This document shows positions 1,728 to 63,997 of a stretch of 64,000 bases of DNA, one piece after another. The translations under genes were made by a program, and so were the position numbers. Under the pieces are notes generated by a model, which saw only the letters and a list, made by a program, of their open reading frames with translations, ran no database searches and was not told where the DNA came from. Source of the DNA: Uranotaenia lowii (lineage: Eukaryota; Arthropoda; Insecta; Diptera; Culicidae); contig NC_073691.1 in the NCBI RefSeq assembly GCF_029784155.1, positions 129,642,714 through 129,706,713 of the forward strand, written 5' to 3'. Each line of letters opens with the position of its first letter. The first letter of the stretch is position 1.

Positions 1728-1752
1728 TAAATATTAGTAATTTCGTAATCAG
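1728..1752 (+). repeat. Direct repeat, left copy (25 bp)
   Basis: Identical to 9914-9938; begins TAAATATTAG and ends CGTAATCAG. The two copies bracket 1753-9913 and lie inside the two halves of a foldback element, as expected for a target-site duplication of a non-LTR insertion. Confidence 0.8.
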
Positions 1753-4108
1753 GTGGTTTGGCAACGCTGGTTGCAAATGGTGCGAATAAAAGTGTGGTGT
1801 GAGGAAAATCATATAATTTTGCCTATTAGAGGCTCTTTAAAATAGTGTTGTGGTGTTATTGTTTTAAGTGGAGGTGCTCTGAAGTACAGGTGGTTTTATT
1901 CTAATGATTATTCCATCTAAGTGAAAAGATAAATGCTTTAAAAGCTGCATGGTGATTTTTTTTTTTTAATGACCCACTTTTCGGGTGTTCCTTGCTGAGC
2001 AAAAATCCGGGTTCCCATGATTAGATATTTTTCGAAAGATTCTCATGGTGTTAGCTCGATAAGGTATAAAAATAAATAGTTTTCAATACCCCCCGGCGTG
2101 GTGTTACGAAATGATTGTAAAATGAAACGTAACGCCTCCAATGTACGAACGTCAAATACGGTGAACGAACGAGTGATCAAAACAGACGAACAGAAATTTA
2201 TGTTTACGGTACGACACTCGACGGTGGTTCGAGGAAATATTGCTGTATGTACCTGATTTCTAAGGAGTCCGAATTTAAGCTAAGTATTCTGTGTTTTTTT
2301 TTTTTTTGCCTTTTAACCATACACCAAGGGTTTTCAAAGCTTATTGTTTGCTAGTTTTGTATGCTTGTAATTTTTGCTCTCTGATTACTGTGTTTGATGT
2401 AGACAAGCAAAATTAAATTGGTAAATCTACTGAAACTGTTCTGGCAAGTTCTGAAGCCAACCTGTGCGGGGTTATGCTGTTGTAGGATTAAGAGAATCGC
2501 CCGTCGTGTTCAGTTGAAGTGAGAATTGTTGAAGATAAGAATGAGATTTGGTAGTAAGAGGCAAATTATAAACGGCTGAGTAGTTGCATGTTTCATTGGA
2601 AGAATTCTTAATGAACATATGTAGGATGTTGACGCGTAAGTTTTTATTTATTTCTTTTTCTCTGATTTATTTCACTAAACCTAGGGTAAACAAAAATCTT
2701 GCCCAGTATAGCATTCGAACCTTTTCCCCAAGCTATCAAACGACAGAACATCGTTCCCACAACATCTAATTCGAGACGCTATGTGTAGGTACTCTCAATA
2801 AATGAAACCACCCATTGTATCAGTTCAAAGATTTAGTAGTTTGCACTTTCGAATCCTTCGTTTGTTACTGTTCTTAAGCTATACATTTCCATTCACAGCA
2901 TGCATTCGCTAATCGGACGCTTTTTCGTCTGACATATCCAGTAATCGAGATTCTTAAAACATCTGAGGCCATTAACAGTAGCTTAAAGAAAGTTTTCTTC
3001 AAGAATTCAATAATCGAATGTTTTCTTATAAATAATTTTTAGTCGTACCTTTAGTCTGTAAATTTACTATTCTCTAGTCGAATGTTTTCTTTAGCTCAAT
3101 CATCGTCGTATTTTTAAACAGTTGTTTTATTTTTTTAAGTGTAGGTTTTCTATATCTGTTTTTCTTATGGTTAGTATTATCTTCTTTAATGTAAATGATA
3201 AAAAATGAAATATTCGCTCGAGCTGATGCTTTTTTACGAACTTTTGGTTATCGGACGTTTTTGTTAATGGGATGGAATCTTTCAGTACCAACAGTGACCA
3301 ATTAGCGAGCGAGTACTATATTCATGTTGAGATATCGGAAAACGTTCTATGGGATTGGATCGTTATTTGTGTTAGCATGAAATTGCCATGATTATTATGT
3401 GAGTCATTATTACTTAAGGATAACTCTTTGATGTTTTTAAATTCAAACGCATCACAGATGAAATTGTTTTTATAAATTTATTAAATCATTTAATACTATA
3501 TTTGCTACATGCTTCAAACACTTAATCGTTATCTACTTCAATTCAATCTTCTATTAAGATAACACATATTTACAAGTTATCGTTATTTTTTCTCACATAA
3601 CAGCTCAATAATAAGGAAACAAAATTCCACCAGTATAACTTTTTAATTAGTGTTTTCTGGAGATTAAATAATTCAAAGAGATTGGAGAAATATATTATTT
3701 GGAATTATAACAGTGCTAAGAAAATCAAATTACTCGGTTCACATACAATCAAGAAAAATATATTAATTTACCAATCATCAAAAATATTGAAGAAAATTTA
3801 AAGAAAACTATGCAATATCTATTGATCAAATCATAAATTTAACCTAAATTTGACATGACACGTTTTACTTGAGCCACACAAAAGATTTCTTCGTGCACTG
3901 CAATTAGTAATTATAACAGTAAGTTAAACAGCTAGATCGCTTAAGGTTTTTATTTATTTATTTTTTTTTTTTCTTTTCTTATTTAGTTTTCTATTTAAGC
4001 TTGAGTTGAGTAAACCAGGTGAAAGTGATTTATATCTCTTCATGAAATTGTGGCTCTGCTTTGATCATTGATCATTTTCGTATTCCGAATCTGGCAATGA
4101 AATTAGAG
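1753..4108. other. Non-coding, downstream of the OTU-EN-RT gene
   Basis: AT-rich, without a recognisable coding frame or RNA gene on either strand. If the donor at 4149 is used, the last small exon of the minus-strand gene should lie here, but I could not pick it out. The segment around 2090-2260 is somewhat richer in CpG than its surroundings. Confidence 0.4.
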
Positions 4109-7100
4109 TTAATGAGGCCAGATATATTTACTTTTCTTTTTTAACTTACCCGAATCTGATTCATTATAATCATAAATTTCCAATAATTTCTTGTGGAATT
4201 TCTCTCGATCCTGAGCTAAACTCTGCCACTCTCCTTCGGTCAGATTTCCATAGCGCTCCATATTTTGAAGAATAACGTTTTTCCAGGTATAACTTGGACG
4301 GCAAGGTCGCAGATTAATAGATTCTAGCTGAGAAGCGACTCGGAGACGATGTGGGCGTTCACGCCGGTGAACGTGGCCCCACCACCGCATCTGATACATT
4401 CTAATCTTTTTAGTTATCCGACGTTTTTGCAACAACTTGTTTACAGGCTTATGTCTTATGGTATTATTTTTTTGATCGCATAAATTTGACATCGCTTTCA
4501 CTATTTGTCTCTCGTAACCACGCAAAGATGTTCTATTATATTTTGTAAGCACAGATGTTTGAGTGCCGTAGATCATTGTTGGTACTATAACAGACTCATA
4601 TATCATCCTCCCCAACTCCCAAGGGGGCTTAAACGATTTTAAGAAGTCTAAAATCAGTTTTGAAGCTCTAACTGCATCTCTACATCTTGTTCTAGTTGTC
4701 AAAGGCCGTTCTAGTCGCGATGTTAAGTATACGCCAAGGTACTTCAGGGGCTTCGTTGTTTCATAGATTTGGGCGCCGACTTCGAGTCGTTCGATAGGTT
4801 GTTCATAAGGATTTCGAATCAGAATTTTACACTTGTTCTTATTTAGATTCAGACCGACATACGAGAGATACTCCTCAAGGGCACTAAAAACTGTGGACAC
4901 TCCTACTTGGTCCTCTGCGATGACCAACAAATCATCCGCAAATGCCATAATCATTGGCAAGCTGAACTCGCAGTCCTGATTTAGTCGCAGATTGGGAATA
5001 ACGTCCTCCACTGACTCTAGAACTGCCTCCATTATAAGGTTGAATATGAAAGGGGAGAGTGGGCATCCTTGTTTTATTCCCCTCATCCTTAGAACCTCAG
5101 AGCCGAGTTGGCTATTCCATAGCACTTGTTGTATTTCTCCGAGGAGACACTCGGTTATTTTGTTAATCAAAATACCTGGAACGCCTTTACCTACGAAAAT
5201 AGAATAAGTAATGATTTCATTACATGAAAATAAATATCAAAAAGTTTAGGAAATGACAATGATATGGTTAAGGCCATTTTCAAATTATGAAAACTTTCAT
5301 GATTCACGATAATCACCTTTCAGAATAGCAGGAAGAGACTGAAGCGACACTCGATCGAAAGCTTTCTCGATGTCCAACGACATCAGGACCAAGGTATTGC
5401 CTGAATTCCAATTCTCTTGCAGTAGCCGTTGCAGAACAAACAGATGGTCGCTTGTGGATCGATTCGAAATGAACGCTGCCTGGTGTGATCCTAAGGGCCC
5501 AACGTACTCCTGGAGCTTCCTCAGCAATTGCAATGCGTACACTTTGTATGCAGTGCAGCTAAGAGCAATTTTTCGGTAGTCATCGACAGTTTTCGGATGC
5601 TTCACTTTAGGAATAGGAACGAGGATTACCCTTTTCCATTCGTCAGGCAACTTGTTCTCGTTCCATACCCTGACTAGCAGTCTATGCAAGCTAGCGATCG
5701 TACCGGCATTGCTATACTTGATAAGCTCAGTTGCTAAAAAATCGACACCGGGTGTCTTTCCGTTTTTCATGCTATCTATGATAGACTGAATCTCCGATAG
5801 GGTTGGCGGATCAAGAGGAATATCTGATCCAGTCTCTAGTAAAAAATCTGGCAAGAGAGATGATTCAGAGGAATCTGGAGTCCAGTCTTGAAGACTAAGG
5901 GATACACGAGAACTAGAATGTTTAGCTCTTTTTTTAAATCGTTTCAAATACCGATATGTCCGATTGACTCGCTCCCCAGTAGGATACGTCTGAACTTCCT
6001 TGAAAAAATCCTTTACTTCTTTCTCTTCAACGAGCCGAATTTTTCTTCCCAAGTCTGCTTTTGCGTCGGCCAAGCGATGTTTCCATTTCGGATGGAGAGA
6101 CCTACTAGCCCAAAACGCAAATTTCTTTACGCGAGCTAATGCCAATCTACATCCTCGATCAAAAATGAACGATGGTCTTCTTCGGAGGGTCTTGTCAGCA
6201 GAGTTTAGAATGCTAGTTTTTAAATCTAACCAGTCATCATTGATAGATCCCGTCTTTTGATCAACTGCAACGACTTGGTTCAGATGTTGCTGATAGCGTT
6301 TTCGGATGATATCATGTTGGAGTAGTCTTGGATCAATACTGTTATGCTTCCTAGAACCTACCTGCTTTGCCTTCTGTGTGTTAATAGATTTATTATGTTG
6401 TCTTAGCGAAATATAGCCGATGAGGATTTTGTGGTCGGTTTTAACAGATGTGTGGGAACACTGAAGTCGTTTCAAGAAGATATTGGTTCGTAAAGATGTG
6501 AGTATATGGTCTAGTTGACTGGAATATGAACCATTCGTCCAGGTTTTTTGAAAACTTGCATTAGCTGAGCCAAGGGTTGACCGTACTGCCATGGAATGCA
6601 ACCCAAGAAACATTCGCATCTGTAACCCATTTGGATTGAATTCCTCATGGCCAGCAAACTTTCCGATCAACAAGGATTCTTCAACACTAATGTTTTTGCT
6701 GCTGAGATGACTATTAAAATCTCCCAGTAAAAGTACCTGAGATTGATCTTTAGTCGAAAGAACTCTACCGAGTAATGAAAAAAAGCGATCGTTCTTTTGA
6801 TTCGGCCCGTGCACATTAATAACTGTCACCCTACAGCTTCTCTGATCGACCTATATTAAAGCGAATCAAAATATGAACATAAAAAATTTTCTCTTGCACA
6901 CATTTTTGGTGTACATAAATATATATAATTGTATAAAAAAAATAGATATAGATAGATAAAAGAAATATATACCTAACCATGTCCGCTATACAATTGAAAA
7001 GAATCTTGTTCATACTAACCTTATAGACCATCTCGGCACTCTGAATGTTGGACCCCACTGAACTAAGATTATCCAAGTGTATATCTAAACCTTTTCGGAG

Positions 7101-8351
7101 CAGGATAGCAAGACCTCGTCTTTTGTTGGATGATCCAGAGCCAAGAAACCAGTAATAATTGGGAGTCTCCGCTTGTGAACAAGCCAAATTGACTTCCTGC
7201 AGGGCACCAAAGTGTATGTTGTGCTTTAGCAGACATTCATCTATCTCTCTCCTCTTTTCGGCTGTACGGCAACCATTCACATTGAAAGTAGCGAATTTTA
7301 AACCGCGCTGAGCGTTAAGATGCATGATGGTGAGGTCGTTGATCTCCTTTGAAGGGGTTGCTGAAATCTCGTCATTTAACCTCCGTTGTGCCAACTGAAT
7401 AATGTCACTGGAAGTTTGTTGAATATTGTGAATGTTGGAGTGTTGCCTTATTGAGAGTACACTTCTATATGTTTCTCGCGAATGCTCATATAATTCTATT
7501 ATATGAAGAGTAATGTTTGTTATTTTCTCAAGTGGTTCCAATTTCCTTGAATCTTGAATAGGACTGTGAAGCAAGACCCTTACACCGAAACATGAAACGA
7601 GCATAGCTAGTGATATCACACTACTACTGCATTCACCTTGGATGATTTGGTTATTCAGGTTTGGATTCTTACTGAGTTCAGCTGAAACTATATTACGGTA
7701 CATATCAGCCTCTCGGCAAGTTATACTATCCCCGGTTAGCTGATGGTGAAAAGCGGTAAATATGTCGTGACAATCAGCAATAACACCTACTCGAGCAATG
7801 TGAGCGTTGTCAAAAAACTTAACTTCGAATGCCCTTGAAACATTTTGGTCCAAAGAAATACAAGCTGGTCTGGTAGATATGATGGAGTCATAGTGCGCAG
7901 AATGTTGATTATCTCCTCTATAAAAAACGCGGAAGTGTCCTCGGTCTACAGAGTTGGACTGAACAGATCTAAATATTATCGGTACGTCGCTGTGAGACTG
8001 GTATACGCTAATATCGCAGCCATAGTAATGACAAAGAGCAGCCAAAGACTCCTCTCCTCCCCAGAGGTTGCAGAACTCAAGTTTGAAAAGGTAATGCTCA
8101 ACTGCTGCCGAGTCATTTCTTTTGAGCACTTCAAAAGCTTGCCTCTGAATGCTTTCACGGTAGATATTAAGGTTGGATCTGATAGTTGCAACTGCGTTAT
8201 GACGAAGCAATTGGCAGCGCTCCGAATATTGTGGGTGGGTTGGAAGTAGTTGAAACATTTGATGAACGAGCGACCCAAACAAACAATTGCCATCTCCCGG
8301 AATTGGCAAGATCCAATAAGTGAATCCTGTCGCACAAGATATTGTCTCCAT
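4109..8351 (-). CDS. OTU protease + APE endonuclease + reverse transcriptase, with introns
   Basis: Exons: 8351-7020, 6850-5317, 5190-4109 (or to the donor at 4150). Spliced length is 1,315 residues with no stop or frameshift. The OTU domain comes first: GDGNCLF has Asp20 and Cys23, and SAHYDSI has His153, so its triad is complete. The APE endonuclease follows from about 350 (FNVNG with Asn357, LQE with Glu386, GDFN at 487-490, LDHIL, TDH at 582-584). The RT has LDIEKAFDRV (Asp937), GIKQGCPLSP and FADD (1039-1042). The tail RWWGHVHRRERP resembles RTE-group ends. The codon at 8351 is preceded by an acceptor-like site, so an upstream exon is possible. All key residues are present, unlike most retroelements here. 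It is either an active intron-keeping non-LTR element or a domesticated gene; the clade is uncertain. Confidence 0.85.
5191..5316 (-). other. Intron 2 of the OTU-EN-RT gene (126 bp)
   Basis: The donor CTGAAAG|GTGATTATC and an acceptor with a pyrimidine tract (TTCTATTTTCGTAG|GT) lie between the LDIEKAFD and QGCPLSP blocks of RT. Splicing gives PAILKGKGVPGILINK in phase 1, the expected connection in this part of RT. Without splicing the frame stops just after ILKG. Confidence 0.88.
6851..7019 (-). other. Intron 1 of the OTU-EN-RT gene (169 bp)
   Basis: The donor AAG|GTTAGTATG and acceptor AATATAG|GTCGATC bound an AT-rich stretch inside the endonuclease domain. Removing it joins ...EMVYK to VDQRSCRVTVINVHGPN in frame (phase 0) and restores normal spacing between the Glu motif and the GPN/GDFN motifs. 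Confidence 0.85.
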
Positions 8352-8393
8352 CTCTATAAAGAATAAATTATTATTAGGCTTTATATGAAACAC

Positions 8394-9390
8394 GGGTCAA
8401 ATTGTAATATTACCAACTCAAAAAGCGAAGAGTATCCGGGAATTTAGAAACCAGGGAGTCACGTGTGTAAATAAGATTTATCCACACAACTTTAAAGGAA
8501 AATGTATTGCAGCTGTGGAACGTTATGCTCATCAACATAAATAATGTAACGCCTCTATGTCAAACACGTGTATTGGTACGTCGTTTCTGTAATATAGCTT
8601 TCCCTGTCTGATTGGTGCTTTAAATCAAAGTTCAATGTTGCAATGCAATATAGGTAAATCGGCGTTTGTGTCAGGAGCGGCATTTAAATGAAAATCACGT
8701 ATGAATACAAACTAATTGATAAGGCTAGTAAGTGATCAATGAACCATTTTCGATAAAATTAAATCAATAGTGGAGTACTAGTACTATTTTAAATTATTAA
8801 ACATCAGATTGTTTCAGGATCATGTTTCAAGTATTTCACCTATTGAGCTACTGATAAATAGATACTTCAAAAACATTATTGTCAACTTCAATAAATACTA
8901 TTGAAATAGAGTCTCAAATAAGATTGAAATCATATGTCGGATAATATATCATTCTTAAAGCAATAAATTCCAAACTTGTGGTATTAACTAGTATCATCTT
9001 AAACAAGTGCACTGAATGCATAAAACTATATAGTTTATATGATAACGATAAATTACAAACCAAAAGTTAACTAAGCCCGAAAGAAAACATTCTTGAATAA
9101 TCTGCAAGGAATAATAAAAACTATTCAGATTCTTGATTGTAAACTCAATGCATTCTCAAAATGTATAGATCTTCCTATGTAAATGCATTGAAATTAGAAA
9201 GGTTGAATGAAATTAACACATAAAAAAGACCAGATAAAGGTTATAAATCTTTTTAAAAATAAAAGATTATTCAATGGATCTTATAGCTTTGCAAATAATA
9301 ACATTATTTTTTTGAACATTGCGCAACAATATGCTTTCTCTTCATCTAAATTTTAACAAACAGCTCGTCTACCTCGAAATGAAGAGATTG
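8394..9390. other. AT-rich non-coding stretch upstream of the OTU-EN-RT gene
   Basis: There is no reading frame of note. If the gene has a first exon or promoter within the insertion, it would be here on the minus strand. I could not identify one. The acceptor-like TTTATTCTTTATAG at 8354-8367 and a branch-like CTAATAAT upstream of it suggest such an exon exists. Confidence 0.4.
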
Positions 9391-9913
9391 CATCACACTA
9401 GTCAAAAGTGTTTCCTGACCATATCCTTTCACCCAAATCCTTAAACCAAAATTATTTTGCTAGGATGCAGAGGTGACCTCGATCCTAAAGCATGAAATTA
9501 TTCTTTCAATCCTTTCTCTCTTTTCCAACCTATCTATTGACTACTAGGACGTGGCCGGCGCCGTTATTGATGATTTAAAGAGAGAGCATCAGTTCTGTGC
9601 ACTGAGAATGGTCTGCTAATCCCAAGCACCAGTCTTTTGACCTTTGAACAAAATTGGTGGCCTCGGTCAATCACGGAGTAGCAACCATTGGCAAAGTGGA
9701 ATTCGTTCTACTGAGCCACGCCTGCGATCATGGTATTCGAAATGCATAAATAATAATGATATGATTCAAGATTAATTCTTTAAATACATTCAATTGAAAC
9801 ACAAGAAACCGTAAATAAAAAGCAGAAAACAAAATTCTCAAAGCTAAATGATGAAGCATTTCGGATTCAATGGTTAAAGGTGGATGTGAGTAGTCAATCA
9901 AGCTAAGCTAAGC
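9391..9913 (+). repeat. 500-bp interspersed repeat, copy 1
   Basis: About 500 bp here is closely similar to 63496-63995, in the same orientation, and both copies end in an AAGCT tandem tail after a shared GGTGGATGTGAGTAGTCAA. A tRNA-like A box lies on the minus strand (TGGCTCAGTAGAAC near 9705-9720), as in tRNA-derived SINEs of mosquitoes. The strand of transcription is therefore ambiguous: the tail argues for +, the A box for minus. Confidence 0.7.
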
Positions 9914-9938
9914 TAAATATTAGTAATTTCGTAATCAG
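9914..9938 (+). repeat. Direct repeat, right copy (25 bp)
   Basis: Identical to 1728-1752. It immediately follows the AAGCT tail of the repeat ending at 9913. Confidence 0.8.
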
Positions 9939-10399
9939 CAATCATAACGATCAATTCAGAAGAAGAATATGCCGTTTGGAAGGGGGATCAATTGTACCCA
10001 ACTCTAGGGGATCAATTGTACCCATAATCAACATTTTCGAAAACTTTTTCTGAAAAAAATTGAGAGTTTTCCATTGCTTTGAAAATATGGCATTATGAAG
10101 TTCATTTTACGCTCGAACGATTGATACATCGGAACAAATATTTTTTTCATAATTTTCCCATGTAAGGAACATTTTAAAGTGATGAAAAAAGATCTTCAAG
10201 TTACATTTTGTGAAATTTTTCAAACAAAGTTCAATTACTCAAACAATTATTTTGTTTAAAATTTTTAAACTACAAGCATTGTTATTTTGCTCATTTTGGC
10301 ACATTTTTCTAGAACATTTGATCTTTGTAAGACATTCCAGTTTCGAGATATAGCTAAGGAATCAAGGATCCCCAGGGATCAAGTATCCTCATTCTCCCC

Positions 10400-10891
10400 T
10401 AATGAATTGTGTAGTTATGTAACGACTAGACTGACGAAATATGAATAAAGATAACTCTATTTCACCACTGAAACCTGTGTTTTCAAAACCGCTAATGCCA
10501 GTTAAATATATTTCTTTCGTATACTTTATAATAAAATTAGAAAAAAACTCCCTAGAGTTTGATTTCGTCAGGCATGCAACCTTCAAAATTTGAAATATAC
10601 AAAATACGGTGATTTAAATCTTCAAACGGACTGAGATATGATATGGATCAGAACATGAGTCCGAATCAGAACACGAATTTCAAATCCGTGCAATTTTTAA
10701 TAATTATTTATATGTTGAAAATATGCAATGTGTTTTTTTTATTTCTATCTTCAGATAACTTTAATCATGTGTCTTATTTTTTCAAGCGTATACAACACAT
10801 TTCTAATTTGAAACAAATTTCAAAGCACCCCAATTTGAATAGTTCATTACTGATGATGCTTTAAATAATTGAATGACCCGTCCAATTACAG
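10400..10891 (+). other. PACRG intron, end portion
   Basis: AT-rich single-copy-looking sequence ending in a TTACAG acceptor at 10891. Nothing else recognised. Confidence 0.6.
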
Positions 10892-11003
10892 GTCCTGTGC
10901 TGCCTGCCGCTGGTGATCCTGCCCATGAAAAAGGCCCTTAGCTCAAAGAATCCAGATGTCATAATTGCCACGTTAAGAGCCATCCAGCAGCTGCTTCAAG
11001 TGG
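10892..11003 (+). CDS. PACRG: PACRG-like protein, penultimate exon
   Basis: The exon is 112 bp, bounded by TTACAG and a GTAAGT donor. It encodes 37 residues beginning VLCCLPLVILPMKKALSSKN and ending AIQQLLQVG with a split glycine codon. This matches the conserved helical stretch of parkin co-regulated gene protein (LPQLIIPIKNAL...VLQHL in the vertebrate family) just before the exon at 34042. PACRG is an axonemal protein of the inner junction between doublet microtubules, so a role in cilia or sperm flagella is expected from the family. The 5' exons lie left of the window. Phase agrees with the next exon. Confidence 0.88.
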
Positions 11004-14070: not shown

Positions 14071-16710
14071 CTAGTTGTCGGGGTTGTCGCGTTGACCTGT
14101 TGACTGCTGGCGGTGAGTTAGATGACAATCTCGCTTGGCTGGCTTAATGACTCCATCTCGACCAGGGTTTTCGGGGAAGTTGGAGGAATGTAGATTCCTG
14201 AACAGTTCACTAGCTGTGATGTGCAATTCCGGAACGCGTCTCCTACTGAGCCCATCAGTATCCTCCTCTGGCAGAACAGGTGCGCATAACTCCAGACAGG
14301 TAACAGACGGCTGCTTGACCAAAGGGACAACGTAGCAGCAGGATCCATAGACAGCGTCTTCTCCTTCGTCGTTGACCTTAGCGGCGCTTGAGGGAGTGTT
14401 GTACAGCTGACTGTGTTGAGCGACGGGACCGACGAGCAGCGTATCGTTGAGCGCGTACCCTGAATTGGGCTCACAGGATCCGTCGAATACCACGCGTTCA
14501 TTGGTGGTTTTGCTGGATTCCTTGAGCACCGGGTGATGTGGCAGATAGCAGTGTGGTTTGTCGTCAACAGGATCGATCTGGTGCTTATTTCCGGGTTGAG
14601 CGTGACTTCCAAGGATTTTGTGGTGTGCATTTCTGGTGGAGTTTCGATATGTGGCTTTCGTTCGGGAATCTCCAAGAGTGATTTGCGGATAATTGAGTCT
14701 GGAATGACGGCCGATGTATCCTCTTTCGTGAACTTGAGTGGTGGAGGGTTCAGCTTCCATTCTCTGGCTCCCATCGGTGGTTTCCATTGGCCGGAACTTC
14801 CTAGGTATCGTTTCTCGGGTTTGATCAACGGTGGAGAGGTAGCACGCTTGCGGTGCGGTGGTGGAGCTGGAATCCACTTTGCCGGAAACTGTCCAGCCAA
14901 AGAGGGTGTCCACCAAAAACGGAGAATTATCACCAAGAGAGTGACGTACGCCTGTGTGGAACTCGTGGTAACATTCTCCACCGATGATCATGTCGATTGT
15001 TGCTGGAACGTTGAAATGAGGATCCGCCAATGGAACCTTTGGTATTTTCCAGGCAGTTGTATCGATCGGGGATGTGGGAAGATGGGAGGTTGGCTTCTTC
15101 ATGACGAGGAAATCGAGTGTGGTGGAGAAGTCGCTGTTCCTGGATACGATCTTGGCAGCTAACTTTTTTCTGATGCGCTTGACTGACTCTCCAATTCCGG
15201 CAACTGCGATGTCCACGGGAGTTTGTCGGGTGGCGAGTTCGTTCGCGAGTTTCCTGGTGATAAAGTTCGACATTGCTGCGGAATCTAGAAAAGCTCGTAC
15301 TGGAATCTTTCTGCCGTATCGATCGACAACTAACAGAGAGACTGTCTCCAAGAGAACAGTTGAATCTGAATGCACGGGAAGATTTACTGTTGGTGGGCTA
15401 AGCAATCTACTGGGGCCTAGATTCGCTTGTGTGGCTTGTGATTCCTCGGATGAGGACTCGTTCGGTGGTGCTGCTTGGTCGTGCAACATAGTATGGTGCT
15501 TTGCTTGGCAAATCCTACACAGGAACTTGGATTTACAGGATCTAGCCTGGTGGTTCGCGCGGAAGCAATTCCAGCAAAGGCTGTGCTGTGTCACAAGCTC
15601 TCGTCGTTGGGAGCTTGACAGGTTCGAAAATGCTGGACATTGATGAAGCGGATGTGTTCTCCAACAACAGTGGCATGACGAAGTACTGGATTGAGTTTCG
15701 GACGTAGCTGTGTTCACAACAGATCGGATGGGAACTGGTTTTTTCGAGATTTGGCCGGCCACCTTGGAAACGGTGGGCACTGAGAAACGATGCTGGAGAT
15801 CGCTGTCCACGGATTTCAACATCCGGACCTGGTGGATGAGGAACTCGATGAGCTCGTCGTATTTCACCTCATCCTTCTGTCGAGTATCTTGCTCCCATGC
15901 ACGAATCGTCGCCGAATCTAACTTATTCGTCAGGATAAAGATGAGCGGAGTGTCCCAATGCTCGATAGGCTCACCCAATTTCCCCAGTGCCTTAACGTGT
16001 CGCTGGAAATCATCAACCAGTGTGTTGAGGTCTTGTGCTGACTCATGCTGGATCGGTGGAAGGTTGTACAGGCCTCGGAACAGCTCCTTTCTTAGGAATC
16101 GCTTGTTGTCGTAGCGCTTTTTCAATGCGTCCCACGTCGACGCATAGTTATCGGCTTGGATATCCACAGACTCGAACGGTTTTCTGGCCTCTCCTTCCAG
16201 TGACTGCAACAGATACTGCAGCTTGTTGACGATTGGTATATCCTCGTTGCAGTGAATCATCGAGAGAAAGTTGTCACGGAACGAGATCCAGCGCGATTCA
16301 TCTCCACTAAATTTCGGAAGATCGATTTTCGGCAGCCGATGATGGAAACTGGAAGCCATGCTGTGAGAAGCCGATGCGTGTATGATCGTCGAACTCAACG
16401 GATGCTCCCTACTTTCCAGTTTGGACAACAAGAAACCTTTCGCTCTGCAAAACCGATCCTCGAAATCCGCCCGGAACTCCAGATGTGTCTCGAACCTTTC
16501 TTCGTTGTCACCCATCTCGATGTCGTTCTGCACGTTCAAGAAGAGTTCGTTGCACTTGTTGAGCGCCTCTAAACGTACAGCAACCTGGCAACAATCCCGT
16601 TCATAGGTGAAATCCGCTACAAACTTCTCCACCACATCTCGTTCGGCACATGCTCGTCGTCTCGTCAGAAGGTCCGCTGCTAACTTTTTCTCCGCCTTGC
16701 TAGTCATCAC
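14071..16710 (-). CDS. BEL/Pao Gag-protease with scrambled pol start
   Basis: The 879-codon frame has a BEL-type Gag region (DUF1759-like, about 125-300, LPKIDLPKFSGDESRWISFR). Cysteine/histidine clusters of the nucleic-acid-binding kind follow at about 346-404, including CWNCFRANHQARSC. A retropepsin-like segment of the DUF1758 kind has LDSAAMSNFI, where the usual DSG reads DSA. The first part of pol is recognisable (YLPHHPVLKESS...VVFDGS...LNDTLLVGP). The sequence then jumps to an RNase H-like QPSVTCLELCA, showing an internal deletion with out-of-frame patches. Gag could still be made; enzymes could not. The start is the ATG pair at 16710 after a leader of about 800 bp. Confidence 0.88.
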   Translation of the reverse strand: MMTSKAEKKLAADLLTRRRACAERDVVEKFVADFTYERDCCQVAVRLEALNKCNELFLNVQNDIEMGDNEERFETHLEFRADFEDRFCRAKGFLLSKLESREHPLSSTIIHASASHSMASSFHHRLPKIDLPKFSGDESRWISFRDNFLSMIHCNEDIPIVNKLQYLLQSLEGEARKPFESVDIQADNYASTWDALKKRYDNKRFLRKELFRGLYNLPPIQHESAQDLNTLVDDFQRHVKALGKLGEPIEHWDTPLIFILTNKLDSATIRAWEQDTRQKDEVKYDELIEFLIHQVRMLKSVDSDLQHRFSVPTVSKVAGQISKKPVPIRSVVNTATSETQSSTSSCHCCWRTHPLHQCPAFSNLSSSQRRELVTQHSLCWNCFRANHQARSCKSKFLCRICQAKHHTMLHDQAAPPNESSSEESQATQANLGPSRLLSPPTVNLPVHSDSTVLLETVSLLVVDRYGRKIPVRAFLDSAAMSNFITRKLANELATRQTPVDIAVAGIGESVKRIRKKLAAKIVSRNSDFSTTLDFLVMKKPTSHLPTSPIDTTAWKIPKVPLADPHFNVPATIDMIIGGECYHEFHTGVRHSLGDNSPFLVDTLFGWTVSGKVDSSSTTAPQACYLSTVDQTRETIPRKFRPMETTDGSQRMEAEPSTTQVHERGYIGRHSRLNYPQITLGDSRTKATYRNSTRNAHHKILGSHAQPGNKHQIDPVDDKPHCYLPHHPVLKESSKTTNERVVFDGSCEPNSGYALNDTLLVGPVAQHSQLYNTPSSAAKVNDEGEDAVYGSCCYVVPLVKQPSVTCLELCAPVLPEEDTDGLSRRRVPELHITASELFRNLHSSNFPENPGRDGVIKPAKRDCHLTHRQQSTGQRDNPDN

Positions 16711-22402: not shown

Positions 22403-23155
22403 CTTACTTACTTACTTAATGATCCCGCGCCGATCCTCCAGTGCATAGGGCCTTGGTAAAAGACCTCCACTGTTGACGATCCGGGGCCAGCGTCTTCACC
22501 TGGTCCCAGTCAAGATTCTCGTCGACAGTTCGGATTTCAGCGGCTAGGCTTCGCCGCCACGAGTTTCTGGGCCTGCCTCTTCTTCGATGACCTTCTGGAT
22601 TCCAATCTAGCGCCTCTCTGCAAATCTCGTTTTCATCTTTCCGCAGCGTGTGCCCAATCCATCTCCACTTACGTTTCCGAATCTCGATTTCTAGCGACCT
22701 TTGATGACACCGGCGATGTAGTTCCTCATTCGAGATCCAGTTGCCAGGCCACCAAGCTCGGATGATATTCCGCAGACAGCGGTTTACAAATAGGACTTGC
22801 AGTTTTCGCGTTGTCACCGCATATGTGCACCAAGTTTCGCACCCGTACAGCAATACGGATTTGACGTTCGACTTGAAGATTCGGATTTTCGTTCGTAGAG
22901 AGATCTGGTGTGACTTCCAGATGTTTCGGAGACTCGCAAACGCAAATCGGGCCTTTTTGATCCGGGTTTCGATGTCTTTCCTGGTACCATCATTAGGCGT
23001 TATCTGGCTATCAAGATACTGGAAGCACTCCACTTTCTCGACCTGTTGCCCAGCTACCATGAAACTGGAGGGATTTCCTGTGTTGATCTCCATCGACTTG
23101 GTCTTTCCGACATTGACTTTGAGACCTGAGGAACTTTCGGTGAGGTCGTCGAGTT
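22403..23155 (-). pseudogene. RTE-clade LINE, 3' end inserted in the Penelope-like element
   Basis: The frame reads GLKVNVGKTKSMEIN, CFQYLDSQI, LLYGCETW and then KWRWIGHTLRKDENEICREALDW with a GRPRNSWRR tail, typical of RTE C-termini. The 3' end is a short TAAG-type tandem (ACTTACTTACTTAA on the + strand). The 14-bp word TTTTGAAAACGAAA at 22389-22402 recurs at 23155-23168, a target duplication. It is 5'-truncated (no endonuclease, no RT catalytic motif). The frame is open for about 250 codons, so insertion is fairly recent. Confidence 0.88.
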
Positions 23156-23199
23156 TTTGAAAACGAAAACGGATATAAAAATAATTTTCACTGTTTTGG

Positions 23200-23720
23200 A
23201 TGTTGTTTTCCACCTAGCCACTACTGATGTTTGTTGTATTTTGTGTGTTTGATGTATTATTATGTGTATTGGTGTGTTTTTGTTTGTTTTTGATGGAGTT
23301 GAAAATACCGGCATAGATGACACTGAGCCCTTAAGTATCGTCTTCTTATTAACCGTGTTGCCATTCCTGTGACACATTTCTAAAGTTTGTAGACCGGAAG
23401 TGAAATTGTAACGATCAATTATTCTCGTGTTGTTCAAATCAAAGGAGTGATCGTGTTTTATGCTGTGATGAAGTAATGCAGTTTGTCCATTCAAATTTGC
23501 CATTCGCGGGTCGTCTTTATCCACTCCTTCGCTTCGTAGTTTGTCCAATGCCTTATTGTTCGATTTGTGTCCGCCAATCCTCTCCTTAAGTGTGTTTGTT
23601 GTCATTCAAATGTATTGAGAATCGCAGTCATTGCAAGGTATCGAGTAAACGACGTTCGAAAAATCGTCCTTGTGTACCGGATCTTTTACTTTCGTAAAAA
23701 TCTGCTTTATTTTAGAAATC
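23200..23720 (-). pseudogene. Penelope-like GIY-YIG endonuclease domain
   Basis: Reading leftward from about 23700: KVKDPVHKDDFSNVVYSIPC, then NDCDSQYI, a stop, and MTTNTLKERIGGHKSNN. This is the CxxC-linked GIY-YIG motif of Penelope-like elements, with a TGA where the glycine of YIG should be. The following segment (LNGQTALLHHSIKHDHSFDL) fits the family's conserved histidine region. The frame runs to about 23200, where the RTE insertion begins shortly after. The catalytic unit is dead because of the stop. Confidence 0.8.
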
Positions 23721-30467: not shown

Positions 30468-33350
30468 TTTTTTTTTTTTACTTTAATTCAATTTATTGAG
30501 ACCGAATAAGTTTGAAAAAACTGTTGACGGTCCCCCGACGGTGATACATTTCAAGTGTAGTGTGTGTTTGCTTTTTGCTTATCTACTACTTAAAACTATT
30601 CACTGTTTGCTGCCTTAAGGTTAAAGGAAAAGGAAAAGGAAAAGGAAGGATTCGGGATTGAGTATGTAGAAGGAAGGGTAAAGGATGGATTTAAGGGTAA
30701 TGCTTTAATTTCCCACGCCAGGTTGCACACGGTTATGAAGACCATTTCCTGTCTTCTCCTCCCAAGAGTCCATAGTGTTGACAAGGTTTACCGCGCTTGC
30801 CACGCGTTACTTTGGTGGCGAACTGTTTCTTAGGAGGTCCGTGCAATTTAATTTTGTGTTTAGATTCAAGAAGCACAGTAAGATCACACCCCTCCACTAG
30901 CCATACTATCTATGTACAGTATGGTTTCGTAAGAGTGGGAGGACCCTACTGTGCTGAGTTTCGTTTAAGGTATAGTTGGTTTTATTGAAGTCTAGGAATA
31001 ATTTTAATTGTTTTTTAAATATGGAGAATCTGTTAATACTTTTTAGTTCACTTGGTAGTGAGTTGAATATACGAATTGCTTTATTCACAACACTTTTTTG
31101 AGCAAAAGAAGTGCGTAATCTTCTAGTTAAAAGATTAATGTGAGCTGAGCCTCGAGTATTGTGGCTATGAGAGTCAGATGTTAGGGTAAAATCTAGTTGA
31201 TGTTTAATAAGATTATTTACAACTTTGTATATGTATTGGCATAATTCGAACATATTAAGTATATCTAAAGATAGCACTTTCAAGTTGTAGAGCAGTGCAG
31301 TCGGATGTAAGATAGGAAGATTTCTTATAATCTTGACTGCTTTATTTTGTAAAATTCGAATAGGTTGTAAATAAATATTGGCACTACTGCCCCATATAGA
31401 ATTCATGTAAGTTATATGGGAGTGTATGTAAGCGAAATAAATTTTCCATGCGGTATTTTCAGTAATTATAGAGCGTATTTTTCTCAAAGCAAAAACATAC
31501 GGTGTTATTTTAGAGCGTACGTGTTTTGTGTGCACGTTCCATTTCATACTATTATCCATTAACAAACCTAAGTACTTTACTGAATCAACTTGTTCAATTG
31601 GAGATCCTCGTAACGAGATCTGAAGAGTTTGAAAATTTCCTCGAAGATTAAAGATCATGTAATTAGTTTTTTTCAAATTCATCTCCATGTGATTTGATAG
31701 AAAAAAATCAAACAGTAACTCAAGGTCATGTTCAATATTTTGTTTCAGCAATGTCAAATCCTTAGAAATTGTTGCATCATCCGCGTAAAGCTGTAATTTT
31801 CCTTTCAGTGGCAGCGAAAATATATTGTTGATATAAATTATGAATAACAATGGCCCAAGGATGGATCCTTGTGGGACCCCGTGCTTAATCGTTTGAAGTG
31901 AACTAGTCGTATTGTTGATTTTAACTGATTGTTGCCTATTGTGTAAATACGATTGCATGAACAGTTGAGCGGAATAGGAAAAACCTATTTCGGAGAGCTT
32001 TTTGATCAGTAATTTATGGTGAACTGAATCAAACGCTTTTTTCACATCTATGAATACACATGCTACAACTTTGCCGTTGTCCATTCCACTAGAGATTCCA
32101 TCAATTAGGTTGACAGCAGCAGATAGAGTATTAGATTTTGGGACAAAACCAAATTGGTTAGGGTGGATGATATTATTCGTAACACAGAACTCCTGTATCT
32201 GTGAATATAGTGTTTTTTCAATAGGTTTCGAAAACGCATTAAGTACTGATATGGGGCGGTAATTTCCAAGAACCGTTTTATCAGCCGTTTTATAAACTGG
32301 AATTACTTTTGCAAGCTTCATGATATTTGGAAAATTACTGTTTCTTATACAGTCGTTAATCAAGGTCGTATATTTCGATAAATAAAGGTTTTTATATTTT
32401 TTCATAAACCTGGTGGATATTTTGTCCAAGCCAGTGGCTGCATTGCTATCAAGCTCATCAATGAATTTTGATACTTGATCTTGCAGAACAGAAGAAAAAT
32501 TGAAAGTTATATGTGAAATATCGCTGTTCATAGCCAGTGATTCTAATGGTTCAGGTATTGAATCACAAACATCCAGATAAAAGTTATTAAACGAGTTGGA
32601 TACAATTGTTTCATCAGAAACCAAATTTCCATTTATGTTGATGGTATACTTTGATGATTCACTTTTCCTTGTTTTATTAAAAATCAATTCGTTTATTTGA
32701 TTCCACATAATTTTGGGATTATTCAAATTGTTCTGAATTTTAGAACCATAGTAATGTTTTTTAGAAAGTTTTATTTTATTGCTCACCATATTTCTTATCC
32801 GCTTGTATTCGTTTTCAATAGTAATATCGAGTTTCACAGCGTCAAAAAGTTTTCGTTTCTTCAAAATTAGCTTCAAAATTTCCTGAGTAATATAAGGTTT
32901 TTTTGATTTACATTTTCGAGCCGTAATTGATTTTGTGTTGCGCTCAATAACGTTTTTAAAGTGGTCAATGAATCCTTCCAGGTTATCAACATGGTTCACA
33001 GAAAGATCATTATCAGATATATTATCATAATTGATTATTGTTTTGATAGGCAAATTTTGTTGAATGGTTGATACTTGCTGATTCATGGATAATATTATTG
33101 TTTTATGATCCGATAAGTCGGGATCTCTTTCGAGCAGAGTAAAATGAAAAGTATTTGTACACAAGTCGGTTAGCACATGATCAATGATAGTAGATATAGT
33201 ATAAAATACTCTTGTTGCATATTTTTTTTCTATAGGGTTCAAAATCATAAAGCCATTACCCTGAGCGGTGCTACAATAGCTGAGAACTGTTGAATCGTGT
33301 ATGTCGAGAAGATTGATATTAAAATCTCCAAAAACCAAATTTTCAGTCAA
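30468..33350 (-). mobile_element. 5'-truncated CR1/L2-like LINE
   Basis: The 3' end is a T-run on the + strand (30468-30479), i.e. a poly(A) tail. A 3' UTR of about 430 bp follows, then the ORF2 frame. Homology starts abruptly within the endonuclease at about 33350. No target duplication was found by eye. Confidence 0.8.
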
Positions 33351-33440
33351 GAAACCCGCAGGAAGAAGAAAAATGAAACGAGTGAAACACGTATAGGGGC
33401 AACATGGCGTCCTCATTGCAAAAATTTTAACCAGAGACAA
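30906..33440 (-). CDS. LINE ORF2: endonuclease C-terminal half and reverse transcriptase
   Basis: The 844-codon frame is uninterrupted. LINE homology begins near residue 33 with LVFGDFNINLLD (GDFN at 38-41); the preceding residues are read from flanking DNA. The rest of the endonuclease follows (IDHVL, LSDH at 110-112). RT shows NYRPISVLNAFSK, FIDVKKAFDSV (Asp465), GVPQGSILGPLLF and YADD (552-555), then MNLKKTNYMIF and VKYLGLLMD. The NYRPIS and YADD forms point to the CR1/L2/Jockey side of LINEs; exact clade not fixed. The missing N-terminal half of the endonuclease makes it non-autonomous, yet RT is intact. Confidence 0.88.
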   Translation of the reverse strand: MSLVKIFAMRTPCCPYTCFTRFIFLLPAGFLTENLVFGDFNINLLDIHDSTVLSYCSTAQGNGFMILNPIEKKYATRVFYTISTIIDHVLTDLCTNTFHFTLLERDPDLSDHKTIILSMNQQVSTIQQNLPIKTIINYDNISDNDLSVNHVDNLEGFIDHFKNVIERNTKSITARKCKSKKPYITQEILKLILKKRKLFDAVKLDITIENEYKRIRNMVSNKIKLSKKHYYGSKIQNNLNNPKIMWNQINELIFNKTRKSESSKYTININGNLVSDETIVSNSFNNFYLDVCDSIPEPLESLAMNSDISHITFNFSSVLQDQVSKFIDELDSNAATGLDKISTRFMKKYKNLYLSKYTTLINDCIRNSNFPNIMKLAKVIPVYKTADKTVLGNYRPISVLNAFSKPIEKTLYSQIQEFCVTNNIIHPNQFGFVPKSNTLSAAVNLIDGISSGMDNGKVVACVFIDVKKAFDSVHHKLLIKKLSEIGFSYSAQLFMQSYLHNRQQSVKINNTTSSLQTIKHGVPQGSILGPLLFIIYINNIFSLPLKGKLQLYADDATISKDLTLLKQNIEHDLELLFDFFLSNHMEMNLKKTNYMIFNLRGNFQTLQISLRGSPIEQVDSVKYLGLLMDNSMKWNVHTKHVRSKITPYVFALRKIRSIITENTAWKIYFAYIHSHITYMNSIWGSSANIYLQPIRILQNKAVKIIRNLPILHPTALLYNLKVLSLDILNMFELCQYIYKVVNNLIKHQLDFTLTSDSHSHNTRGSAHINLLTRRLRTSFAQKSVVNKAIRIFNSLPSELKSINRFSIFKKQLKLFLDFNKTNYTLNETQHSRVLPLLRNHTVHR

Positions 33441-34041
33441 TTTTTAATAATCCTTAAAATGATATCTGCGGCTCGAGAATGTCAATCAAAGGGATCTTTG
33501 GTAACATTAATAAATTATGGTTTAGCACAAAATGCAGAGTTTTCAGCATAATCCTTGTAAAAATTCATTCTAAATCTGCAGTATGACAACAACAGATGCG
33601 TTTGGAAACAAAAATGTTACCCTATTTCGAGTCTGTTATGGGGTGAAGTGTTTAATTTCGAGAACCACACTGACGTTCTGGTAGCAAAAATTTGGTACGG
33701 TGCGTTTGTATGCGATTTGACAGCTGGTTCAGTCCTCTGGTAGGGAGAGAGTTTCAAACGGGTTGGTTGGGAAAGTTCTCAAGTTTGGGTATTTTCGAGA
33801 TTCAGTGTATATCAATTGCGCGACTCGGTAGCTCTTGTCGGAAAGTGCGGTGAGATTTGTCAACACGAACGGGAGAAAAACAGAATGGTACACATGAATT
33901 CATAAAATGTAGTCTATTTTAGCTTCAATCTGTTACAATAAATATCGCTGCTTCTCGAGGATTCTTTTCTCGTCCTAAAACCCTCGATGTATCTTTCAAA
34001 AATGCTTAAATAATATTGAACTTTTCTTCTCCCATTTGTAG
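33441..34041. other. End of the PACRG intron
   Basis: 33665-33725 (CTGACGTTCTGGTAGCAAAA...) repeats in inverse orientation the sequence at 24976-25030. Otherwise nothing recognised before the acceptor TTTGTAG at 34041. Confidence 0.5.
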
Positions 34042-38144: not shown

Positions 38145-38566
38145 AAAGTTGATCTTCAGAACACTCTTCATGTTGGTCCTCCCGATCCAAGGTAAATTCC
38201 TAAAGTGAACCTTCAGAACACTTTTCATGTTGATCCTCTCGATCCAAATCTAATTTTTTAAGTGAACCTTCGAAACACTCTTCATGTTGGTCCTCTCGCT
38301 CCAACGTTAATTCGTTAAGTGAACCTTCAGAACACTCTTCATGTTGGTCCTCCAGATCCTACGTAAATTCATGAAGTGAACCTTCAGAACACTCCTCATG
38401 TTGGTCCTCCCGATCCAAGGTAAATTGATGAAGTGAATCTTCAGAACACTCTTCATTATGGTCCTCCCGATCCAACGAAAATTCCTAAAGTGAACCTTCA
38501 GAACACTCTTCATGTCCTCTCGATCCAACGTTAATTCGTTAAGTGAACCTTCAGAATACTCTTCAT
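38145..38566 (+). repeat. 57-bp minisatellite, block 1
   Basis: About seven copies of a unit with ACCTTCAGAACACTCTTCAT, then a GTTGGTCCTC...GATCCAACG...AATTC segment, with units of 50-58 bp. On the minus strand it is open and would read repeats such as MKSVLKVHFRNFRWIGRTNM. This may be accidental, since 57 is divisible by three. The array continues after insertions at 40016 and 40499. Confidence 0.9.
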
Positions 38567-38568
38567 TA

Positions 38569-40013
38569 GGGTGTCCCAAAATTGCATAACTTCTGGGAAT
38601 CTGGGGGCTCACCCTCCAAATGGTAGATTAGGATGTGCAGAACAAACTTTTGTATGGAGCTGACTAAAAAAAATCATGTTTAGAGGTTCCGCAAGCGCGA
38701 TCTTTAAAAAAAGTCCACTTTCAAAATATTTGATCTTAAATAAATTCTGGGTCCAAAAATTTTCATAAAATTTATATATTTTATATTTTTTTAATTTTGT
38801 TTGAGTTAAAAACTACACGTAAAAAATACAAAATGAACCAAATTTGTATCCAAATGTAAAACTAGCAAGCTATTTTCAAGAAAGAAAAATTTTTTGGTCC
38901 AAAAATTTTGAATTCAACTGACCAAAATGTGTATCAAGCGTAGAATATTTTTGATACCAATGCCATCAAAAGATGCGGATTTTTGTGCACTTAAACTTTG
39001 CTGAACAAAACATATGGTTTGTATAAACGTGTGAACAGCTATTCACGACTTACTGCTTAACAAAAATTACAATTTAGGATATTTTTTATTTAATTTATCA
39101 AATTTGTCTTAATAAATACCTACTTTAAAATCAAAATACTTGCAAAAAAAGACTTTGATGGTTTAAAGGAGTCATCAGAAGGCCATATGCCGAATTTGAG
39201 CAGAATCGGACAACAGGAAGGGGTTACACTGAATCTCAATTGTGAAAGGGATTCTGAGACATAGTGTTCTAAAGAAGCATAAAAAACTGGTTTTTCATCA
39301 TACATTTTTGTCTTTACCAATCGATTGCTTGATTATGTAAGTTTTATTAAAATTTCAATTAAGACTAACATTTCACTTGAAGACTGCAACTCGATTGGAC
39401 TTAAAACAAAAAAGTTATGGCTGTTCAAAGATTGTATTTTTGTGGCAAATTGTCGTTTAACACACAATGAGTACTTTTTACTCATTGCGTTTTACAGGAC
39501 TTTTACTAAATTGTAATTTTTGTTAAGCAGTAAGTCGTGAATAGCTGTTCACACGTTTATACAAACCATATGTTTTGTTCAGCAAAGTTTAAGTGCACAA
39601 AAATCCGCATCTTTTGATGGCATTGGTATCAAAAATATTCTACGCTTGGTACACATTTTGGTCAGTTGAATTCAAAATTTTTGGACCAAAAAATTTTTTT
39701 TCTTGAAAATAGCTTGCTAGTTTTACATTTGGATACAAATTTGGTTCATTTTGTATTTTTTACGTGTAGTTTTTAACTCAAACAAAATTAAAAAAGTATA
39801 AAATATATAAACTTTATGAAAATTTTTGGACCCAGAATTTATTTGAAATCAAATATTTTGAAAGTGGACTTTTTTTAAAGATCGCGCTTGCGGAACCTCT
39901 AAACATGATTTTTTTCAGTCGGCCCCATACAAAAGTTTGTTCTGCACATCCTAATCTACCATTTTGAGAGTGAGCCCCCAGATTCCCAGAAGTTATGCAA
40001 TTTTGGGACACCC
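38569..40013. mobile_element. 1,445-bp foldback element inserted in the minisatellite
   Basis: Arms of about 508 bp (38569-39078 and 39506-40013) are nearly perfect inverses, beginning GGGTGTCCCAAAATTGCATA. TA borders both ends, and the minisatellite resumes on both sides. The 426-bp centre has no recognised coding frame. TA duplication points to Tc1/mariner-type mobilisation. Confidence 0.9.
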
Positions 40014-40015
40014 TA

Positions 40016-40285
40016 CTCTTCATATTGGTCCTCCAGATCCAACGTGAATTCATGAAGTGAATCTTCAGAACACTCTTCATTATGGTCCTCCCGATCCAAC
40101 GAAAATTCCTAAAGTGAACCTTCAGAACACTCTTCATGTTGGTCCTCTCGATCCAACGTTAATTCGTTAAGTGAACCTTCAGAATACTCTTCATATTGGT
40201 CCTCCAGATCCAACGTGAATTCATGAAGTGAATCTTCAGAACACTCTTCATTATGGTCCTCCCGATCCAACGAAAATTCCTAAAG
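40016..40285 (+). repeat. 57-bp minisatellite, block 2
   Basis: Continuation of the array at 38145 after the foldback insertion, about four and a half units. Confidence 0.9.
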
Positions 40286-40498
40286 CACTGATAAGCTGAT
40301 GTAACTCTGGGCTCCCTTTTCATCAACCATCATTTCAATAGTTAGTGATTATACCGTTGATAGTGATGGCGCTAGTAGAATAGGAAATGCTCACACAGGA
40401 GCCTATGGTTCGGAAATGATGAGCTAGATGTCGCCCAAAATTTCTGGGCGATAAATCATTCTTTCGTTTGCTTAGGGAATTACATCAGTTTATCAGTG
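40286..40498. mobile_element. 213-bp MITE inserted in the minisatellite
   Basis: Ends CACTGATAAGCTGATGTAA and TTACATCAGTTTATCAGTG are 19-bp inverses with one mismatch. Relative to the unit consensus, four bases (TGAA) are missing at the junction and no target duplication is evident. Confidence 0.85.
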
Positions 40499-40650
40499 CC
40501 TTCAGAACACTCTTCATGTTGGTCCTCTCGATCCAACGTTAATTCGTTAAGTGAACCTTCAGAATACTCTTCATATTGGTCCTCCAGATCCAACGTGAAT
40601 TCATGAAGTGAACCTTCAGAACATTCCTCATGTTGGTCCTCTCGATCTCA
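40499..40650 (+). repeat. 57-bp minisatellite, block 3
   Basis: The last two to three units, fading at about 40650. Confidence 0.85.
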
Positions 40651-40762
40651 ACTTTAAGTTCATAAAATCGAAGTATGTTTTGAACCACTGTCAAAATTTA
40701 TTTGAGTTTGAAAAACAAAGAGCGTTTGAGTCAGTTGAAGAACGAGGATTAATTGTCATAAA

Positions 40763-63495: not shown

Positions 63496-63997
63496 TAAGA
63501 TCTACACACTTGTCAAAGGTGTCTCCTGATTATATCCCTTTTCTCCCATCCCTACAAAAATTGTTTCGCTAGGATGAAGAGGAGACCTCGGTCCTAAAGC
63601 ATAATTTTACATTCTATCATCCCTTTCTCTTATTTTCCTCTCTATCTATTGACTACTAGGACGTGGCCGGCGCCGTTATTGATGTATAAAGAGAGAGCAC
63701 CAGTTTTGTTCATTGTGAATGTGTTGTCAATCCCAGACACCATTCTTTTGACCTCTGTGCAAAATTGATGGCCTCGGTCAATCACGGAGTAGCAACCATT
63801 GGCGATGTGGAATTCATTCTACTGAGCTACACCAGCGGTAATGGAATTCGAAATGCTTTAGTACTATTATGATGGAATGAACTATGGAAAGTAAGAACTT
63901 TATATCATTTTAAAAGTATGATTCCGAATTTTTAACGGCATTTCGGTTTCAATGACTTAAGGTGGATGTGAGTAGTCAATCAAGCTAAGCTAAGCTA
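63496..63997 (+). repeat. 500-bp interspersed repeat, copy 2
   Basis: Closely matches 9391-9913 from CACTTGTCAAAGGTGTCTCC to the AAGCT tail. Shared phrases include GGACGTGGCCGGCGCCGTTA and ATCACGGAGTAGCAACCATT. Upstream flanks differ, so this is where this copy begins. A tRNA-like A box (TAGCTCAGTAGAATGA) sits on the minus strand near 63810-63830. Confidence 0.75.

Follow-up and report, generated by a model that had tools for sequence, protein, structure and literature searches.

An intron-bearing OTU, endonuclease and reverse transcriptase gene on the strand opposite to the tailed strand of a mobile unit in the mosquito Uranotaenia lowii

Gene and mobile unit at the locus

The stretch of DNA analysed here (the window) comprises 64,000 nucleotides of the genome of the mosquito Uranotaenia lowii (contig NC_073691.1, positions 129,642,714 to 129,706,713). 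Its minus strand carries a gene for an OTU domain, an apurinic/apyrimidinic endonuclease (APE) and a reverse transcriptase (RT), with a predicted length of 1,310 codons once spliced, and this gene lies within a mobile unit of 8.16 kb whose 3' end is on the other strand (Table 1). Three long exon frames of 521, 517 and 375 amino acids from stop to stop are read directly on the minus strand, and excision of intron 1 (borders AAG/GTTAGT...ATATAG) and intron 2 (AAAG/GTGATT...TTCGTAG) leaves a single open frame. An earlier note on this DNA, made from the letters alone, had proposed one frame of about 1,300 codons for the three activities, with these two introns inside catalytic domains and the frame restored by their removal; the intron coordinates proved exact, and the matches to APE and RT are split at these points. 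A donor at 4149 and an acceptor at 8354, taken in that note as hints of further exons, both belong to introns (4149-4091 and 8413-8354). Removal of intron 3 gives a C-terminus ending in SDSDSEYENDQ, with the stop codon at 4067-4065, and intron 0 ends directly upstream of the ATG at 8351.

The genome searched comprises 1,077,602,043 bases in 2,009 contigs, with C1, C2 and C3 measuring 216, 437 and 370 Mb, respectively. Three other loci bear on the gene model: copy 2 (C3:345.34 Mb), almost identical to the window unit, copy 3 (C2:300.32 Mb) and the more diverged L040 (C2:266.55 Mb). The introns of copy 3 and L040 differ from those of the window gene in sequence and length despite equal GT-AG positions (Table 1), and the ten introns measured in these three genes are all GT-AG, with a GC content of 18-30%. 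Since a copy with 69.4% amino acid identity and a relative with 46% have introns 1-3 at equal positions, the intron calls in the window gene are not due to chance. Splicing of introns 0-3 is predicted.

In the protein, the AP endonuclease domain sits N-terminal to a LINE-type (long interspersed nuclear element) RT domain. By sequence, the RT resembles LINE-1 ORF2 and R2 chains (1e-9 to 1e-10), the endonuclease part aligns with that of LINE-1 ORF2, and the OTU part weakly matches an OTUD2 chain. Neither a Penelope-type RT nor a GIY-YIG nuclease was found, the nuclease being APE and the RT LINE-like as judged by domain and chain matches rather than by a tree. Protein identities are 905/1,304 between the window and copy 3, 600/1,291 between the window and L040, and 599/1,288 between copy 3 and L040. 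Constraint is visible in the comparison of the window gene with copy 3, for which the nonsynonymous divergence (dN) is 0.198 and the synonymous divergence (dS) is 2.94, a saturated value, giving a dN/dS of about 0.07; differences at codon positions 1, 2 and 3 amount to 22.5, 15.6 and 51.2%. This low ratio, together with the excess at third positions, indicates past purifying selection on the gene.

The unit has a 520-bp 3' end and an (AGCTA)n tail on the plus strand, with the OTU-APE-RT gene on the minus strand. Neither this opposition of unit and gene nor the 25-bp duplication at 1728-1752 and 9914-9938 had been part of the earlier note. The longest exact direct repeat between the flanks of the unit is 25 nt and the next longest 11 nt, which rules out a chance repeat. 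Full units have their 5' start in common: four places besides copy 2 align with the first 536 bp at 73-78%, the alignment starting from base 3 of the window unit in copy 2 and from base 5 in three of the four. Of 17 units, 7 have the motif TGGCAAC beginning no later than nucleotide 16, a count that includes two near-identical pairs. A search of the 64 kb against Rfam gave three matches, all below the gathering score and none inside the unit. An exon resembling PACRG lies at 10892-11002 (best value 4.2e-05), and the unit therefore probably adjoins or lies inside a PACRG-like host gene. A 27-nt inverted repeat (1237-1263 and 10375-10401, 93%) straddles the unit outside its duplications. Within the unit, a motif GTAACGCCTC..ATG..GTCAAA, noticed by eye on the plus strand at 2128-2165 and again at 8530-8564, may be regulatory; both places align to copy 3.

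Table 1. Features of the mobile unit, of the predicted gene on its minus strand and of a related 3' end in the window (e-values for OTU, Exo_endo_phos and RVT_1 families from Pfam)
Feature	Position	Strand	Evidence or remark
Left target-site duplication, TAAATATTAGTAATTTCGTAATCAG	1728..1752	+	25/25 identical to 9914-9938
Mobile unit, read in the polarity of reverse transcription from 1753 (5') to about 9913 (3'); 2 bp could belong to unit or duplication	1753..9913	+	Near-identical copy at C3:345.34 Mb with other flanks
5' region of unit, TGGCAAC near start	1753..2290	+	Copy 2 and four other places aligned
Exon 4, last codons and stop	4065..4090	-	SEYENDQ in window, TEFDDEA in copy 3, after splicing
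Intron 3, 59 nt, GT-AG	4091..4149	-	Position shared by copy 3 (intron of 57 nt) and L040 (58 nt)
Exon 3, second RT part (ADD motif) and C-terminal part	4150..5190	-	RVT_1 1.2e-18; R2 and LINE-1 ORF2 chains by sequence
Intron 2, 126 nt, GT-AG, phase 1	5191..5316	-	Position shared by copy 3 (intron of 88 nt) and L040 (59 nt)
Exon 2, second APE part and first RT part	5317..6850	-	Exo_endo_phos_2 1.1e-4 (below curated cut-off); RVT_1 1.1e-7; LINE-1 ORF2 9.6e-10
Intron 1, 169 nt, GT-AG, phase 0	6851..7019	-	Position shared by copy 3 (intron of 166 nt) and L040 (67 nt)
Exon 1 from acceptor; ATG 8351; OTU about 8300-7890; first APE part about 7292-7080	7020..8353	-	OTU 2.3e-10; Exo_endo_phos 1.9e-4 (below curated cut-off); OTUD2 chain 0.0043
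Intron 0, 60 nt, GT-AG, presumed 5' untranslated region	8354..8413	-	Counterpart in copy 3 before its ATG; in L040 (55 nt) within codons
Conserved 3' end of unit, common to large family	9395..9913	+	84-100% in the 40 matches scored among 4,743 candidates; fold of 21 aligned copies stronger on this strand
3' microsatellite tail, (AGCTA)3	9901..9915	+	Copy 2 has 2 units and copy 3 has 4-5; most other copies read have about 4
Right target-site duplication	9914..9938	+	25/25 identical to 1728-1752
3' end of another family member, window edge	63505..63997	+	83.5% to 9394-9745, 93.3% to 9856-9915; equal polarity and terminus

Copies and relatives elsewhere in the genome

Copy 2 is 99.65% identical to the window unit over 5,189 alignment columns and 99.83% over 2,988, begins within about 4 nt of the same 5' start and extends over 9,310 bp between its own duplications, with flanks that differ from those of the window. 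Target-site duplications measure 25 bp in the window, 23 bp in copy 2 and 24 bp in copy 3. Copy 2 retains introns 1 and 2, and as this near-identical copy stands on another chromosome with a duplication of its own, the unit moves with its introns in place. Intron 1 of copy 2 (locus L009) also holds a 1,134-bp insert with ends TC...CTAGT, which we take to be Helitron-like. In copy 3 every exon is open, and both this copy and L040 combine the same introns with an antisense 3' end, the tail of L040 having been read as well; the RT is antisense to the tailed strand in the window, copy 2, copy 3 and L040. L040 has a twin at C3:329.68 Mb of the same antisense layout, identical over positions 2-1281 and 2554-10000 of 10 kb (100%), with a 1.28-kb repeat extra in L040. 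A deleted copy (L013, 90-96% identity) and a fragment at C1:96.52 Mb (84%) were also found, and frames limited to exon 1 at C2:211.11 Mb and on contig C1591 (32-33%) suggest further intron-bearing lineages.

The 3' end of the unit is far more widespread than the gene. Its terminal 25-mer has 1,491 exact genomic copies (the reversed control has 0), and nearly all of these loci must be without the gene. Forty of 4,743 candidates from a search with the 3' end were scored, and the upstream 10 kb were read at 18 loci besides the window and copy 2. Exact duplications of 15-27 bp directly follow the plus-strand tail at 14 of these 18. The 14 units so bounded are 1.5-9.3 kb long and have the 3' end in common, their bodies matching one another in some groups and showing no match elsewhere; none of the 14 gave a sense-strand RT match, and 13 are without any frame of at least 200 amino acids. 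In the remaining one, locus L018, frames of 1,246 and 340 amino acids lie on the minus strand; it was dropped as a candidate relative with an antisense RT, its long frames looking by eye like a nested LINE, presumably of Jockey type. Among relatives of L040 (39 scored of 5,480 candidates), the 3' side is likewise shared, and left limits fall at positions 8528, 8666, 9044, 9058, 9185, 9190 and 9528 of the query. A constant 3' end with heterogeneous left limits is the pattern predicted if reverse transcription begins at the 3' end of the plus strand; the limits at 8528 and 8666 recur three times and twice, respectively, and part of the pattern may reflect subfamilies and not truncation. Derivatives without the gene retain its surroundings: at C2:31.44 Mb sequence from both sides of the gene is kept and the gene is lost, and at C1:32.94 Mb a portion of the 5' region and the 3' 25-mer are found on one strand, separated by about 1.4 kb.

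More distant relatives are intronless. Among the 86 matches listed for exon 2, those in long frames, below a pair at 51%, have 28-37% amino acid identity, and 16 lie in frames of 1,480-1,540 amino acids without these introns. Exon 3 matches fall in the same frames, at up to 46%; at C2:290.76 Mb (a 1,498-aa frame) the parts matching exons 2 and 3 are 18 bases apart. With exon 1 as query (80 matches), the intronless long-frame relatives match in the endonuclease part only. Matches to the OTU part come from the lineages with introns and from scattered fragments; in addition, one intronless frame of 1,224 amino acids (C2:336750798-336754292) combines OTU with APE and RT matches and is a possible sense-coded cousin. 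Weak and indirect evidence on the orientation of the intronless relatives comes from C1 below 78 Mb, where the four RT matches (5.16, 33.84, 50.73 and 63.69 Mb), of which only that at 33.84 Mb has a long frame, lie at least 70 kb from the listed exact 25-mers as judged by eye, a comparison that inexact copies escape. Viral contigs held no relative of exon 2 and no match to the 3' end. The earlier note had held that related copies lacking both introns as an ancestral state would speak against it, and the picture is divided: close copies share the introns, and distant relatives lack them. The uninterrupted long frames of the latter make it probable that this lineage gained its introns. They would then be derived, the other possibility being loss in other lineages, and we favour gain after inversion.

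Other features of the window stand apart from the unit. A separate LINE RT frame of 845 amino acids (30906-33443, minus strand; RVT_1 3.3e-34) is about 19% identical to the RT of the unit, and a C-terminal RT fragment (22416-23213, minus strand; DUF6451 3.4e-18) shows weak likeness to its C-terminus. A minus-strand frame of 879 amino acids at 14071-16710 (DUF1759 1.4e-40) is presumably a gag of BEL/Pao type, and a 57-bp tandem repeat forms three arrays within 38154-40663.

Polarity, mechanism and rival explanations

It seems likely to us that the unit is an autonomous APE-type non-LTR (long terminal repeat) retrotransposon in which the genomic RNA and the protein gene have opposite sense. The template for target-primed reverse transcription would be a plus-strand RNA that begins at about 1753 and closes with the structured 3' end and the (AGCTA)n tail. 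The OTU-APE-RT protein would be translated from another transcript, of the minus strand, starting inside the 3' part of the unit and spliced at introns 0-3. Acting in trans, this protein would use the plus-strand 3' ends both of its own unit and of numerous relatives that have no gene. The plus-strand RNA would carry the introns as their complement and hence be unspliceable, so that they would survive each round. The earlier note had suggested spread of an unspliced antisense copy as one explanation for the introns, and this fits best: the tail, the duplications and the 3'-sharing relatives place the reverse-transcribed strand opposite the gene. With the apparent reverse-transcribed strand antisense to the gene, introns are retained, and their gain or protection through inversion is the best reading.

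Several points weigh against this interpretation. No duplication was found at 4 of the 18 sampled loci (L013, L017, L019 and L026), nor for L040 in the stretch read. Exon 1 of copy 2 bears a one-base indel, and the genes read as open along their whole length are therefore limited to those of the window, copy 3 and L040. A distant antisense RT (23-24% amino acid identity) occurs at 2 of the 18 loci read, L018 and L019, the latter (C2:242129050-242139049) having an APE-RT upstream of the common 3' end. The consensus fold of the 3' end of 21 copies is stronger on the plus strand (z -8.6 versus -4.8 for the whole, -2.5 versus -0.7 for the core), as expected for an RT-binding RNA; this counts as support and not as proof, because the column shuffles used as a simple control ignore descent and the minus strand, too, outperforms its shuffles. 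A partner LINE that encodes its RT in sense and ends in this 3' sequence may exist, the upstream readings covering 18 of the 40 scored matches besides the window and copy 2. Finally, we infer both transcripts, their splicing and the use of the unit's own RT from sequence.

Such a partner LINE would make the gene a passenger, lying antisense in a retroposon family that is moved through the common 3' end by the RT of another element, and serving something else or nothing. A family of this size (1,491 exact terminal 25-mers, with 18 further upstream stretches read) requires an active RT from somewhere, and the scarcity of frames in its bounded members would suit this explanation; we nevertheless think it unlikely, given the purifying selection on the gene, the same linkage and introns in three diverged lineages, and the 14 bounded units, none of which matched an RT in sense. 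A minus-strand RT element might instead have become nested by chance in a plus-strand retroposon, and a T-rich run at 3947-3997, downstream of the gene, can be read as a minus-strand poly(A). However, no inner duplication was detected (repeats of 11 nt at most), linkage and orientation are alike in copy 3 and L040, and whole units were copied together, which leaves such nesting very improbable.

Spread as DNA, by segmental duplication, rolling circle or a transposase, would also keep the introns and had been suggested in the earlier note; OTU and APE are moreover known in Helentrons (PMC4067079). Little probability attaches to it in view of the 23-25 bp duplications, the variable number of tail units, the different flanks, the relatives with the 3' side only, and the absence of a Rep/helicase among the 10 window open reading frames scanned against Pfam. 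Conversion of an RT into a domesticated host gene, the note's other alternative, would account for the small number of gene copies, the introns and the constraint. It appears most improbable. That a nearly identical copy stands on a different chromosome, between duplications of its own, speaks against a gene domesticated at a single locus; new sites have recently received near-identical copies bounded in this way, and several dispersed lineages coexist within one genome.

On balance, though with somewhat less assurance than for the explanation of the unit given above, we think it probable that the unit represents a negative-sense, antisense-coded class of non-LTR retrotransposons, in which RT mRNA and genomic RNA come from opposite strands, the RT gene is free to gain and keep introns, and a trans-acting protein feeds more than 1,000 gene-less relatives. 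To our knowledge, the RNA that is reverse transcribed in an autonomous LINE also encodes the RT, and cis preference of the RT for its own mRNA is thought to sustain them. If antisense coding is true, mRNA and template are different molecules and simple cis preference therefore cannot be used. Persistence with a trans-acting RT, the abundance of gene-less relatives and inversion as a condition permitting intron gain would thus be opened to test, spliced RT mRNA and unspliced template being distinguishable molecule by molecule. A literature search of partial coverage found no antisense-coded LINE, so novelty in print is not proven.

Comparison with known systems

The unit shares with APE-type non-LTR retrotransposons the APE and RT polyprotein, target-site duplications of variable length, a 3' microsatellite tail and many incomplete relatives with the same 3' end; it differs in that the RT lies opposite the tailed strand and the gene has four introns. 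The intronless relatives of this type in the same genome encode their proteins in single frames. Penelope-like elements (Penelope, Athena) are retroelements that keep introns, but they have a Penelope RT with a GIY-YIG nuclease, whereas RT and nuclease are of LINE/APE type here. Dualen/RandI non-LTR elements resemble the unit in joining an OTU-type protease to a LINE RT; they are known as algal, intronless and sense-coded elements. We know of no antisense coding in either Penelope-like or Dualen/RandI elements.

The combination of APE and OTU in one mobile element is described for Helentrons (PMC4067079) and an OTU domain for Ginger1 transposases (PMC2836005). Helentrons are rolling-circle DNA elements with a Rep/helicase, unlike the unit with its RT, 23-25 bp duplications and tail.

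A man-made parallel is the indicator cassette used in laboratory assays of LINE retrotransposition, whose intron fares differently in a transcript of one strand and in that of the other. The RT gene of the unit itself seems to exploit the same asymmetry.

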